A stretch of 64,000 nucleotides of DNA from a virus. Position 1 is the stretch's first letter. Each line of letters starts with the position of its first letter. This document shows, piece by piece, positions 3,822 through 8,032 of the stretch. A program made the translations under genes and the position numbers. Under the pieces are notes generated by a model. It worked only from the letters and a program-made list of their open reading frames with translations, was not told the DNA's origin and did no database searches. The DNA is taken from the IMG/VR virus record IMGVR_UViG_3300020473_000013, positions 124,001 to 188,000 of that record, one strand, 5' to 3'.

Positions 3822-4532
3822 ATGGCTAAGAAGGCACCTTCCGCCGAGAAGAAGGCAAAGTCTACCAAGAAGGCTGCGAAGACAGGCGGCAAGGTCAAGA
3901 AGTCCAAGCTGCCGAAGAAGCTCACGGTCAAAGCGCTCGCAGACGCCAGCGCTGAGTACAACCCGCGTGTCATCAGCGCCCGTCAGCTCAAGGGTCTCCA
4001 GACCTCATACGAGACGTTCGGTGACCTGAGTGGTATCGTGCTCAACCGTGCTACCGACACCATCGTGTCTGGTCACCAGCGCCTCAAGACACTGAAAGGC
4101 AAGAAGACTCGTGTGGTGACCGAGGACCACAAGGATAAGTACGGCACTGTCGAAGTCGGACATATCGAGGTCCTCGAGGATGGTACGCTCACCAAGATTC
4201 CTTTCCGCGTCGTAAACTGGTCCGACGACAAGGCGGAGAAGGCAGCCAACATCGCGGCGAACGCCCACGGCGGGGACTTCGACAACAACAAGCTGGGTAA
4301 GCTGTTGGAGGAGCTGGAACCTACTGAGGCCTTTGAGATCGAGCAGCTCGGTTTGGACCCGTTAACCATTCGCTCGCTCGGTGGTGGAGCCTCCGCTGCT
4401 GAGGAACCCAAGACAAGTAAGAAGGACAAGCCTGTCGAGGGCGAGCAGGATGATGACGATTCGTTCGGCGAGTACGACGAGAACTCCTTCGAGTTTGAAC
4501 ACCAGTGCCCTCGCTGCTCCTTCAAGTGGTGA
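3822..4532 (+). CDS. ParB-like nuclease-fold protein next to DNA methyltransferase
   Basis: 236 residues. The first 37 are a Lys/Ala-rich tail. Residues about 40-170 carry the ParB N-terminal-like fold, seen in NPR (47-49) and IVSGHQR (81-87), the conserved core of phage ParB-domain proteins. After an acidic linker (about 200-225) the protein ends in CPRC (229-232), half of a zinc ribbon. In phages such proteins are commonly coded beside or fused to DNA methyltransferases, as here, where the methyltransferase starts six bases after this stop. A role in guiding or assisting DNA modification is inferred; partition is unlikely without a ParA. Confidence 0.75.
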   Translation: MAKKAPSAEKKAKSTKKAAKTGGKVKKSKLPKKLTVKALADASAEYNPRVISARQLKGLQTSYETFGDLSGIVLNRATDTIVSGHQRLKTLKGKKTRVVTEDHKDKYGTVEVGHIEVLEDGTLTKIPFRVVNWSDDKAEKAANIAANAHGGDFDNNKLGKLLEELEPTEAFEIEQLGLDPLTIRSLGGGASAAEEPKTSKKDKPVEGEQDDDDSFGEYDENSFEFEHQCPRCSFKW

Positions 4533-4537
4533 TCTGA

Positions 4538-5734
4538 ATGGCAAAGAAGAAGACGAAGACCAACGAGAAGTTTGTACCGAAGGACCCTACATCCAAGGTC
4601 GCCAAGATCGACGGCAGGGAAGTCGAGTACAACGGCGTGACGCTGGCTGATGATACCGGCGTCTCCCGCAATCATCTGGCTATCGCCGAGCCGTTGGAAG
4701 GCGGCAAGAGCCTCGTGCCTACGATGGCCAAGATCAATAAGAAGCGCAAGGACTTCACGTCCGTCAGCTTCTTTGCGGGTTGCGGTGGTGCATCCGTCGG
4801 CATGAAGATGGCAGGCTTCAACGTACTGCTATCTAACGAGTTCATTCCCGCGGCTCAGGACACTTATCAGCTCAATCATCCTGGCACCATCCTGAACAAG
4901 TCCGACATTCGTGAACTCGACCCTAAGGCCTTGCTCAAGGAGCTTGGCCTTAAGAAAGGCGAGCTGGATCACATGGACATGAGCCCTCCTTGCAAAGGCT
5001 TCTCCGCTGCAGGTGTTCAGGAAGACGGCTGGAACAAGGAGGTCCTTTACTCCGACGGTGTGAAACAGCGCGTGGATGACCTATTCGATCAAGGCATCCG
5101 GATGCTCAAGGGTATGAAGCCCAAGACGTTTACCGCCGAGAACGTGTCTGGTCTGGTGCGCGGCGTGTCCCGAGGTCTGTTCGCTGAGACCATAGAGGAC
5201 TTCAAGAAGGCCGGCTATCGCGTCAAGGCTGCGATGATCGAGCCCGTGAAGCTCGGCGTCCCGCAGACACGCGCCCGCCTCATCATCATTGGTGTGCGCA
5301 ATGACCTGAAGATGGACCCTGTATTTCCGAAGCCGTTGAAAGGACGGCCCGTTACCGTGCAGGACGTTCTCCCTCACATCGCATACCTCAAGACGAGCCT
5401 CAAGTCTCGCCTGACCTACGTTCCTGCTGACCGCCCTAGCCCCACGATCGTGGCATCCGATTTTGATACAGGGGAGAACGCGCGGTTCAGTTGCGGAGGC
5501 TGGGTAGAAGACGATCAAGGCCGCCGTCGTAAATACACGTTGCCCGAACTCCGCCGCGTCATGTGTTTTCCTGACGACTTCAAGTTGTCTGGGACTCCGC
5601 GCCAGCAATGGGAGCGTCTGGGCCGTTCACATGTCCCTCTCCAGGTTTACCACCTCAGCAAGGCAATCCGGGAGAACGTTCTGGAGCCCTACTATGACAG
5701 CAAGGGAGCGGATTACACCGACACGATTAAGTGA
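4538..5734 (+). CDS. DNA cytosine-C5 methyltransferase with altered motif X
   Basis: 398 residues with the ordered motifs of C5 methyltransferases: I FAGCGGAS (79-86), IV SPPCKGFS with catalytic Cys152, VI ENV (201-203), VIII QTRAR (243-247) and a motif IX-like PELRRVMCFPDDF (336-348). An extra 70-residue charged N-terminus precedes motif I. The usual motif X GN(A/S)VP reads GRSHVP (362-367): the Asn that packs near the cofactor is gone and Arg363 and His365 appear. Motif IV has PPCK rather than PPCQ. It follows the ParB-like gene and precedes a CmoA-like carboxy-SAM synthase and a PP-loop ligase. Family assignment is firm. Use of carboxy-SAM in place of SAM is inference, and the target sequence is unknown. 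Confidence 0.93.
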   Translation: MAKKKTKTNEKFVPKDPTSKVAKIDGREVEYNGVTLADDTGVSRNHLAIAEPLEGGKSLVPTMAKINKKRKDFTSVSFFAGCGGASVGMKMAGFNVLLSNEFIPAAQDTYQLNHPGTILNKSDIRELDPKALLKELGLKKGELDHMDMSPPCKGFSAAGVQEDGWNKEVLYSDGVKQRVDDLFDQGIRMLKGMKPKTFTAENVSGLVRGVSRGLFAETIEDFKKAGYRVKAAMIEPVKLGVPQTRARLIIIGVRNDLKMDPVFPKPLKGRPVTVQDVLPHIAYLKTSLKSRLTYVPADRPSPTIVASDFDTGENARFSCGGWVEDDQGRRRKYTLPELRRVMCFPDDFKLSGTPRQQWERLGRSHVPLQVYHLSKAIRENVLEPYYDSKGADYTDTIK

Positions 5735-5738
5735 CCGC

Positions 5739-6011
5739 ATGACCGACCAAGACCTACACCAACTGAGGGAGCACATCCGTTCCCTTGAAAACCGCCTCCT
5801 CATAATGGGCTTGGCTCGCGAGGAGGCAGTTCAGGAATACCGGGTCCGTGTATCCTCCGAGTTGTCCATTGATCCGGACAGCCCTGGCTTAGCCTGCATG
5901 GAGCGAAGCATGTTCGTCTCCCGAGGCCAGCAGTTGGGGCTGTCCGACTCCGTATTGGAGAGCATGGCTGATGCACTGTTCCCTGCCACCGTCAGACCTG
6001 ACTGTAAATAA
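5739..6011 (+). CDS. Hypothetical small protein, 90 residues
   Basis: Starts at an ATG four bases after the methyltransferase stop, so it is probably translated by coupling; the ribosome site is weak (AAGTGA). The N-terminal half is helical (about residues 3-40) and the C-terminal half is a short mixed domain. No family is recognised. Its final codons, GAC TGT AAA TAA, contain the TGTAAATA motif that probably serves the CmoA-like gene downstream. Operon position suggests an accessory role in DNA modification, but nothing in the sequence proves it. Confidence 0.65.
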   Translation: MTDQDLHQLREHIRSLENRLLIMGLAREEAVQEYRVRVSSELSIDPDSPGLACMERSMFVSRGQQLGLSDSVLESMADALFPATVRPDCK

Positions 6012-6036: not shown

Positions 6037-6756
6037 ATGTACGAAGAAGATCGCGTTACCCCGAAGGATAACTGGGAGTTCGACGAGGACGTTGCCAAGT
6101 GCTTCGACAATATGCTGGAGCGCAGTATTCCCATGTATCAGGAAATGCGCAAGCTGTGTCATAAGCTCGGACGCAATTTCGTCCAGCCTCACAATTCCAT
6201 CATCGACCTCGGCGCTAGCCGCGGTGAAGCGCTCCGCCCTTTCATCGAGGACGACACTGCCAACAAATTCATGGCCGTGGAAATCTCCGAGCCTATGCGC
6301 ACTGTCATGCAGGACTTGTACCGGCATAATCCCAAGGTACGTATCTCCGATATGGACCTGCGCAAGCTCGACCAGAACGTGGGCACCCTCAGCTCTCATT
6401 CCATCTCTCTGGCTATGTCCATCCTGACTATCCAGTTCACTCCTATCGAGTATCGCCAGCAGATCATGCAGGCTATCTACGACATGTTGGAGCCCGGTGG
6501 AGCTTTCCTGTTTGTCGAGAAGGTGATCGGCAACACGGCGTCTCTGGACCGCATGTTTGTTCAGGAATACTACGACATGAAGAACCAGAACGGTTACAGC
6601 TACGAGGACATCCAACGCAAGCGCAGTTCCCTCGAAGGTGTTCTGGTTCCCGTGACAGCTAGCTGGAACGAGGACATGTTGAAGAACGCTGGTTTCCGTC
6701 AGGTGGACTGTTTCTACCGCAATCTCAATTTCGCTGGCTGGCTCGCAATCAAGTAA
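6037..6756 (+). CDS. cmoA: CmoA-like carboxy-S-adenosylmethionine synthase
   Basis: 239 residues, started at the ATG after CCGGAGG. It aligns by eye with E. coli CmoA almost end to end: WEFDEDVAKCF (13-23), the SAM-binding loop IIDLGASRGEA (55-65), LTIQF (130-134), LEPGGAFLFVEK (151-162) and NGYS...KRSSLE (185-200). CmoA makes carboxy-SAM from SAM and prephenate. The Arg I remember as binding the added carboxylate (E. coli Arg199) corresponds to Arg196 here and is kept. In bacteria the product serves CmoB in wobble-uridine modification, but no CmoB is seen here. The neighbours are a DNA methyltransferase with altered motif X and an ATP-dependent ligase, so carboxy-SAM may be used on DNA. Plain methyl transfer cannot be excluded. 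Confidence 0.85.
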   Translation: MYEEDRVTPKDNWEFDEDVAKCFDNMLERSIPMYQEMRKLCHKLGRNFVQPHNSIIDLGASRGEALRPFIEDDTANKFMAVEISEPMRTVMQDLYRHNPKVRISDMDLRKLDQNVGTLSSHSISLAMSILTIQFTPIEYRQQIMQAIYDMLEPGGAFLFVEKVIGNTASLDRMFVQEYYDMKNQNGYSYEDIQRKRSSLEGVLVPVTASWNEDMLKNAGFRQVDCFYRNLNFAGWLAIK

Positions 6757-6764
6757 GGTGCATC

Positions 6765-7583
6765 ATGACTCTCCAAGTACGGGAACACATCACCAACACC
6801 GTAGCCAAGACGGGTGACCGATCCTGCTCGGTGCTGATGTCCTCTGGGATCGACAGCCACAGCGTCCTGTTCTCGTGCTTGGACGCTGGTCTGAAACCTG
6901 TAATCACCTCATTCACCTTGGATGACCGCGAGTCTCGCGACTTCCGAGCAGCGCGCCACGCTGCGGCCTACTTCGATCTGGAGTTCAGGCCCGTAGTTCT
7001 CAGCACGGACCTCACCAAGTTGAAGAAGCGCGTTCTCCAGATGGCGCGCCTTGGAGTTAAGGGTAAGACCGCCTTCGAGTGTCTCTGGCCTATGTTTACC
7101 GCGTTCTCTGCAATCAAGGAGGACGTGGTGTTTAGCGGTTACGGCGCCGACGCCTATTTCGCCTTGAGCAAGCGCGGCACCATGCACTATAAGGACGACG
7201 TGAGCAAGTACGCTCTGGAGGCTTTCGAGAAGTACAAGGAGCCCGACTCCCAGCTCAACGTCCTCAAGGCGTTCGCTGCCAAACGCGGTATCACCTACGC
7301 TCCTCCGTGGTTGAACAAGCACATCACCCGCCAGGTTCGGGAGCGTGTCTTCACCTGGGACGAGTTGAATCGGCCCAAGCAAAAGAATCCCGTCCGTGAG
7401 CAGTACGCCGAGTACCTCGCGGGCTGCATGGTGTACAATCATGTAAACTACCAGCTAGGCGACAGCGGAATCTCCGAGTTATTCACCAAACTACTGGACG
7501 ATCCTGTCTGGAACGCTGCGGGCTACAAATCAACCACGGGCATTTTTAACTCCGTGGTTCGAGGGGAGATCACTCAGGTATGA
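6765..7583 (+). CDS. Asparagine-synthetase-like PP-loop ATPase, no glutaminase domain
   Basis: 272 residues. The PP-loop SSGIDS (26-31) replaces the usual SGGxDS, and VVFSGYGADAYF (121-132) matches the GEGADELF signature of the asparagine synthetase C-terminal domain. These enzymes activate a carboxylate as acyl-AMP and pass it to an amine. The N-terminal glutaminase domain of AsnB is absent, so the amine would be free ammonia or another amino compound. It starts eight bases after the CmoA-like stop behind AAGGTG. A carboxymethyl base in DNA would be a logical substrate. Family is confident; substrate is inferred from context only. Confidence 0.8.
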   Translation: MTLQVREHITNTVAKTGDRSCSVLMSSGIDSHSVLFSCLDAGLKPVITSFTLDDRESRDFRAARHAAAYFDLEFRPVVLSTDLTKLKKRVLQMARLGVKGKTAFECLWPMFTAFSAIKEDVVFSGYGADAYFALSKRGTMHYKDDVSKYALEAFEKYKEPDSQLNVLKAFAAKRGITYAPPWLNKHITRQVRERVFTWDELNRPKQKNPVREQYAEYLAGCMVYNHVNYQLGDSGISELFTKLLDDPVWNAAGYKSTTGIFNSVVRGEITQV

Positions 7584-8032
7584 ATCCGTTTACCCATCTA
7601 CGCGCTCAGGTGAAAGCCAATCTGGAGCGCGAAGCGAAGCTGTCTCCTGCAGAGAGACGGCAGCATCAATGGCAGTTCTTCACGACCGTAGGCGAAGTCA
7701 CCTACATCGTAGGCAAAGGCGGTGCCAACACCATGTTCTATATGGTTGGCCAGAACGGTGAACGACACATGTGCAGCCCCAAGGACATGCTGGACATTAT
7801 CAGCTCCTGGGGCCAGTCACGGTTCGCTGTGTACGCTGTCTGTAAGAAGCCCAGCAAGTTCAGCCACGGTCCTTTCCAATCCGAGGAAGAGGCACTCGCC
7901 GTAAAGGATGCGCCGAAAGGAAGCTACATCGTTGGCATCACACCCGAGAACAAGGTGATCAGACTCCACAAGCTCAAGAGCGGCCTGATGGATGACAAGT
8001 GGGTCCCGTTCAAGCCGAAGAAGAAAGGATAG
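7580..8032 (+). CDS. Hypothetical protein translated with the PP-loop enzyme
   Basis: 150 residues, starting in an ATGA overlap with the PP-loop gene, so translation is coupled. It is moderately basic, with a helical N-terminus (about 1-30), a beta-rich middle (TYIVGKGG at about 41-48) and a Lys-rich end. No family is recognised. The tight coupling makes it a candidate accessory factor of the same pathway, for instance a substrate carrier or DNA-binding partner. Confidence 0.7.
   Translation: MNPFTHLRAQVKANLEREAKLSPAERRQHQWQFFTTVGEVTYIVGKGGANTMFYMVGQNGERHMCSPKDMLDIISSWGQSRFAVYAVCKKPSKFSHGPFQSEEEALAVKDAPKGSYIVGITPENKVIRLHKLKSGLMDDKWVPFKPKKKG

Follow-up and report, generated by a model that had tools for sequence, protein, structure and literature searches.

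Which group does a viral DNA cytosine C5-methyltransferase (C5-MTase) place on its target base when the asparagine of its motif X has given way to a basic residue and a carboxy-SAM (Cx-SAM) synthase is encoded close by? The question is raised by a stretch of 64,000 nucleotides (the window), part of a 224,853-base IMG/VR record. The initial annotation had pointed to a motif X changed from the GN(A/S)VP of ordinary SAM-dependent C5-MTases to GRSHVP, and to a nearby synthase gene. Both observations are borne out: the altered motif is read directly from the codons at 5609-5641, and CmoA is encoded downstream of the MTase gene. The relevant features are given below, with CmoX residues counted from the start at 4538.

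3822-4532, plus strand: ParB-like protein, 236 aa, directly upstream of CmoX (PHROGs phrog_620, E 1.8e-31) and in the same place in phage PaBG
4538-5734, plus strand: CmoX, predicted DNA cytosine C5-carboxymethyltransferase, 398 aa (PF00145; best PDB match 8YF3)
4982-4993, plus strand: SPPC motif, S149-P-P-C152, with the catalytic Cys152 (sequence and alignments)
5609-5641, plus strand: motif X, W358-E-R-L-G-R363-S-H-V-P-L368, containing the E-R-x-G-R signature by which the CmoA-linked type is recognised
5624-5626, plus strand: Arg363 codon CGT, counterpart of SpCmoX Arg350 (gap-free 8YF3 alignment; role of Arg350 from PMC12783734)
5739-6011, plus strand: small ORF of 90 aa, lying after CmoX and before CmoA (ORF list), which may not be a gene
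6037-6756, plus strand: CmoA, carboxy-SAM synthase, 239 aa (EcCmoA 4gek, E 2e-27 over residues 11-239; phrog_4752, E 9.4e-75)
6622-6624, plus strand: CmoA Arg196, equivalent to EcCmoA Arg199 (alignment with 4gek; role of Arg199 from PMC3663124)
6765-7583, plus strand: CmoY-like ATP-dependent amide ligase, 272 aa (PF00733, E 1.9e-10; 28% identical to SpCmoY)

A biochemical precedent is available from Yang et al. (Nat Commun, December 2025; PMC12783734), who characterised CmoX, CmoA and CmoY of Synechococcus phage S-B43. In that system CmoA makes carboxy-SAM, CmoX produces 5-carboxymethylcytosine at GC, and CmoY joins glycine to the 5-carboxymethylcytosine. In the 1.9 A structure of SpCmoX, Arg350 replaces Asn304 of M.HhaI, touches the carboxymethyl group of Cx-SAM and holds its carboxylate; the wild-type enzyme accepts only Cx-SAM, and the R350N variant neither Cx-SAM nor SAM (PMC12783734). 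The same study lists 5,615 CmoX candidates, defined by SPPC and Arg350, from collections including IMG/VR, the source of the window record too. Since December 2025 the feature is no longer novel, and the window gene fits the published CmoX definition, with SPPC (S149-C152) and the motif-X Arg (R363) both present. What is new here, at the level of sequence comparison, is the linkage between Arg and cmoA across 186 viral MTases, the Asn/Arg swaps in bacteria and the occurrence of E-R-x-G-R in separate lineages.

Translation of 4538-5734 gives 398 uninterrupted residues with a match to the Pfam DNA_methylase family (PF00145, E 5.5e-45); no second PF00145 match was found elsewhere in the 224,853-base record, of which CmoX is the sole C5-MTase. 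SpCmoX (8YF3) is the top solved match of the predicted structure (mean pLDDT 82) as well as the best PDB match by sequence (phmmer). Alignments equate Cys152 with Cys98 of SpCmoX and Cys81 of HhaI, and the SpCmoX residues of the Cx-SAM pocket, Phe25, Glu47, Phe48, Asp69, Cys98 and Arg350, correspond to F79, E101, F102, D123, C152 and R363 of the window protein, with F79, E101, F102 and D123 invariant in the homologue alignment. The true start may lie later, up to ~60 codons downstream, since disorder is predicted for most of the first ~52 residues and the PaBG homologue begins near residue 53.

The register of motif X had been left ambiguous by one residue in the initial annotation, with either Arg or Ser at the Asn position. 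A gap-free phmmer pairing of WERLGRSHVPL in the window with TERVGRMVPPL in 8YF3 settles the matter in favour of Arg363 and against Ser, since the paired Arg, counted along the chain, is Arg350, the residue equated with M.HhaI Asn304 in the crystal paper (PMC12783734). The proposal that a basic residue at this position denotes a natural carboxy-SAM enzyme is supported, having been demonstrated experimentally in the homologue SpCmoX, and the analogy with M.MpeI N374K made in the initial annotation is drawn in the same publication (PMC12783734). In both enzymes the motif-X Asn is replaced by a basic residue and Cx-SAM is used (predicted for the window); they differ in that M.MpeI carries an engineered Lys and targets CG, whereas the window has a natural Arg and belongs to a dedicated family. 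The suggestion that His365 (CAT, 5630-5632) might be the relevant basic residue did not hold up: it stands where a nearly invariant Val is expected, and the position is Val in 63/71 and His in 2/71 of the Arg-type viral sequences. His365 was rejected as a second carboxylate ligand and, judging from this conservation pattern, is probably irrelevant.

Arginine residues of C5-MTases often contact DNA, and Arg363 might bind a DNA phosphate or the flipped base in place of the cofactor carboxylate. We consider this extremely improbable, because the equivalent Arg directly contacts Cx-SAM in the 1.9 A crystal (PMC12783734) and the switch between Asn and Arg follows the presence of cmoA.

The window protein shares with SpCmoX the C5-MTase fold, SPPC, the motif-X Arg and the residues of the adenine/ribose site. 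It differs in overall sequence (37% identity), in the loop after the Arg, which is locally unusual (GRSHVPL as compared to GRMVPPL in SpCmoX and GR(S/A/M)VPP in the family), and in a different and shorter target-recognition region, SpCmoX requiring GC. M.HhaI and M.HaeIII have in common with the window protein the fold, the catalytic Cys and the ENV and QxRxR motifs, but they carry the motif-X Asn and use SAM.

Viral contigs were fetched with MTase, CmoA and CmoY queries, and a contrast set with ordinary phage MTases; the window MTase used alone as a query returned nothing from the viral contigs, and an alignment query was needed. In viral loci, 182/182 matches to the CmoX profile spanning the motif-X site have Arg, as do 31/31 rows of an alignment, which argues that its presence is not due to chance. 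After thinning, 186 non-redundant viral MTases were aligned to the window, residues were read by alignment column, and the presence of cmoA within 5 kb was scored. The initial annotation had proposed to compare homologues that do and do not have a neighbouring cmoA, and the outcome is clear-cut: 71 of the 186 are of the Arg type and 66 of these 71 have cmoA within 5 kb, as against none of the 107 enzymes of the Asn type (84/186) or Met type (23/186). A Gly type (3/186) has cmoA within 5 kb in all three cases, and 5/186 have no letter at the site. The Arg types share Glu359 (71/71) and Arg360 (70/71), while the viral Asn and Met types as a rule lack both. Fisher's test of Arg against cmoA in the 186 viral MTases gives 2.6e-39, uncorrected for descent and locus picking. 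Independent pairs were too few for a sign test to reach significance, so that the Fisher value serves as a description and not as a descent-corrected test. When loci were picked by the MTase alone (n=80), CmoA was present in 67/80. A few Arg-type homologues are without cmoA in the stretch seen, and the host CmoA could serve these enzymes, as E. coli CmoA does in PMC12783734.

These results bear on a more conventional reading, according to which the window enzyme is an ordinary SAM-dependent 5-methylcytosine MTase that merely tolerates Arg in motif X, the neighbouring CmoA serving tRNA wobble modification. The familiar role of CmoA is in tRNA cmo5U synthesis, and the window enzyme has an ordinary C5-MTase fold. 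Nonetheless, we regard this reading as very improbable given the perfect conservation of the Arg in the CmoX family and its tracking of cmoA, the SpCmoX wild-type and R350N data showing use of Cx-SAM only, and the lack of CmoB in S-B43, which carries the same genes (PMC12783734).

Two side observations from the viral loci may be recorded. Alcaligenes phage Afa-NA1 encodes a CmoA 51% identical to that of the window (L005:7977-8729), and its complete genome gave no C5-MTase match. An intein-like insertion immediately in front of the catalytic Cys interrupts the CmoX-type MTases of Erwinia jumbo phages and, at the same site, one enzyme with GFPC in place of SPPC (L004:16486-18591, L008:30052-32154 and L118:10703-12613).

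Bacterial genomes provide natural swaps at the same position. Close homologues with ERLGRAVPP and an adjacent cmoA occur in Verrucomicrobia, Streptomyces, Nonomuraea and Scytonema, while close SPPC homologues in Acidobacteriia MAGs (L397, L403, L408, L423) read ERLGNSVPP and have no cmoA nearby. When the C-terminal region was left out of the tree, the Asn sequences from Acidobacteriia were nested within the same Arg clade as the window (branches of 98% and 96%). This looks like a return to Asn accompanied by loss of cmoA, and the sequences suggest that the acidobacterial enzymes have likely reverted to SAM use. CmoX-CmoA pairs were also seen in the chromosomes of Streptomyces sp. CCM_MD2014 (L415), in L411 and L430, and in Verrucomicrobia MAG contigs (e.g. 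L410, L426), with five or more copies in some Verrucomicrobia MAGs; CmoY is present as well at the majority of loci from Streptomyces and Nonomuraea. The bacterial loci may be proviral, since some of the neighbouring genes are ParB-like or encode a phage-type DNA polymerase.

The Arg is not confined to a single lineage. Among viral loci picked by CmoA are MTases that have GFPC or SYPC in the place of SPPC and still read E-R-x-G-R in motif X (L089:6241-7320, L115:10698-11573, L147:1998-2969, L218:4274-5161, L103:10627-12066 and L130:10689-11885); the 11 GFPC Arg-type representatives all have cmoA within 5 kb (11/11). In a quick tree that left out the motif-X region and carries SH-aLRT support only, these 11 are placed among the Asn types, and forcing every Arg type into one clade lowers the log-likelihood by 181 and is rejected (AU p 3e-70). 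The GFPC Arg types may form one group: a single GFPC Arg clade is not rejected (AU p 0.44), and more than one origin among them is not forced. The splitting of the SPPC Arg types by a Met type in the quick tree is unsupported, and holding them together raised the likelihood. A C-terminal swap as the source of the Arg in GFPC enzymes was judged unlikely: the letters flanking motif X remain lineage-specific (L147 DAQRYERCGRAVTVNVIYE as compared to Asn-type L326 DTQRYRQLGNAVTVNVVYE), a pattern better explained by local substitution than by exchange of a domain. In the staphylococcal phages PhiSepi-HH3 and vB-SscS-F1 a C5-MTase adjoins CmoA, and in F1 also CmoY, yet motif X reads VVGGVINQ without Arg; these enzymes (L215:6672-7676, L006:6819-7823) are the sole C5-MTase of their complete genomes, and either another residue holds the carboxylate or SAM is used. 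Taken together, it is probable that the change from Asn to Arg, along with the new Glu and Arg of E-R-x-G-R, arose more than once in C5-MTases teamed with a phage CmoA, in the SPPC lineage and separately in the GFPC (and SYPC) types, and that at least one further CmoA-linked lineage, that of the staphylococcal phages, uses or coexists with carboxy-SAM without the Arg. The GFPC and SYPC types fall outside the published SPPC criterion, although the authors of PMC12783734 may already be aware of this.

The genes that flank cmoX complete the locus. CmoA, which is preceded by a GGAGG ribosome-binding site, shows full-length homology to EcCmoA and retains as Arg196 the equivalent of Arg199, which is salt-bridged to the Cx-SAM carboxylate in the E. 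coli enzyme (PMC3663124). The 90-aa ORF at 5739-6011 has no family match in Pfam or PHROGs. The ligase consists of the Asn-synthase ATP-pyrophosphatase domain alone, without a glutaminase domain, and adjoins cmoA; its predicted structure is nearest to beta-lactam synthetase and asparagine synthetase, and a PDB match by sequence was not found. The carboxymethyl mark could be the end product, with the CmoY-like protein working elsewhere, for instance in tRNA or nucleotide modification. Many cmoX-cmoA loci are devoid of cmoY, and the window ligase is just 28% identical to SpCmoY. Against this, CmoY-type genes lie beside CmoA and CmoX in 46/80 of the MTase-selected viral loci, and the window gene follows cmoA immediately and retains the ATP loop and the core; we therefore hold it unlikely that the ligase is foreign to the pathway, and favour its action on the carboxymethyl mark. 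A 2OG-Fe(II) oxygenase (PF13640) is encoded next or close to the CmoY-type gene of Erwinia phage Yoloswag and of Salmonella phage Sen-NF (L004:4194-4835, L007:8760-9407), where a further step on the amide is possible; no such 2OG oxygenase was found in the record of the window.

The order parB-cmoX-cmoA-cmoY differs from the cmoA-cmoY-cmoX of S-B43, which has in common with the window a cmoA and an Asn-synthase-type ligase adjoining cmoX; ParB-domain genes often accompany CmoX (PMC12783734). Pseudomonas phage PaBG (KF147891, 125896-129859) shares the ParB-like protein, the MTase (51% identical, GRSVPP), CmoA and the Asn-synthase gene, and in both genomes peptidase, DnaX and SbcC follow in the same order, from which we conclude that the window probably derives from a PaBG-like jumbo phage. 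In PaBG, unlike the window, cmoA and cmoY are separated by a gene of 150 aa. An equally long gene (150 aa) comes right after the ligase in the window (7580-8032); its sole match is phrog_23597, of unknown function.

In our view the window very likely contains a phage DNA hypermodification cassette in which CmoA, the Arg363-bearing CmoX and the CmoY-like ligase act in series. CmoA (6037-6756) would convert SAM and prephenate to carboxy-SAM. Cys152 of CmoX would attack C6 of cytosine, and the enzyme would move the carboxymethyl group to C5, yielding 5-carboxymethylcytosine, with Arg363 pairing with the cofactor carboxylate and thereby selecting Cx-SAM over SAM. Finally the CmoY-like ligase (6765-7583) would adenylate the new carboxylate with ATP and couple a free amine to it (glycine in the one homologue tested), and the bulky mark would most likely shield the phage DNA from host nucleases. 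The case draws on sequence, register, conservation, genomic linkage and predicted fold, all three reactions having been shown elsewhere for homologues; the activity of the window proteins, the amine and the protective role are what we infer from it. The low identities to SpCmoX (37%) and SpCmoY (28%), the unusual loop, the Arg-less staphylococcal lineage and the few Arg types without cmoA count against the cassette. With Arg363 in place of Asn, it is almost certainly a carboxymethyl and not a methyl group that is put on the cytosine of the phage DNA.

The comparative data alone support the notion that one residue marks a DNA MTase as part of either a methylating or a carboxymethylating system. 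This residue changes with cmoA both ways: Arg was gained in separate lineages, and within an Arg clade Asn appears where the synthase gene is missing. Candidate carboxymethyltransferases are extended past the published set by the separate GFPC-type and Arg-less lineages, which also offer ready-made pairs for the comparison of cofactor choice. The window itself adds a diverged member of the CmoX family and a CmoY-like ligase, and possibly a new base modification.
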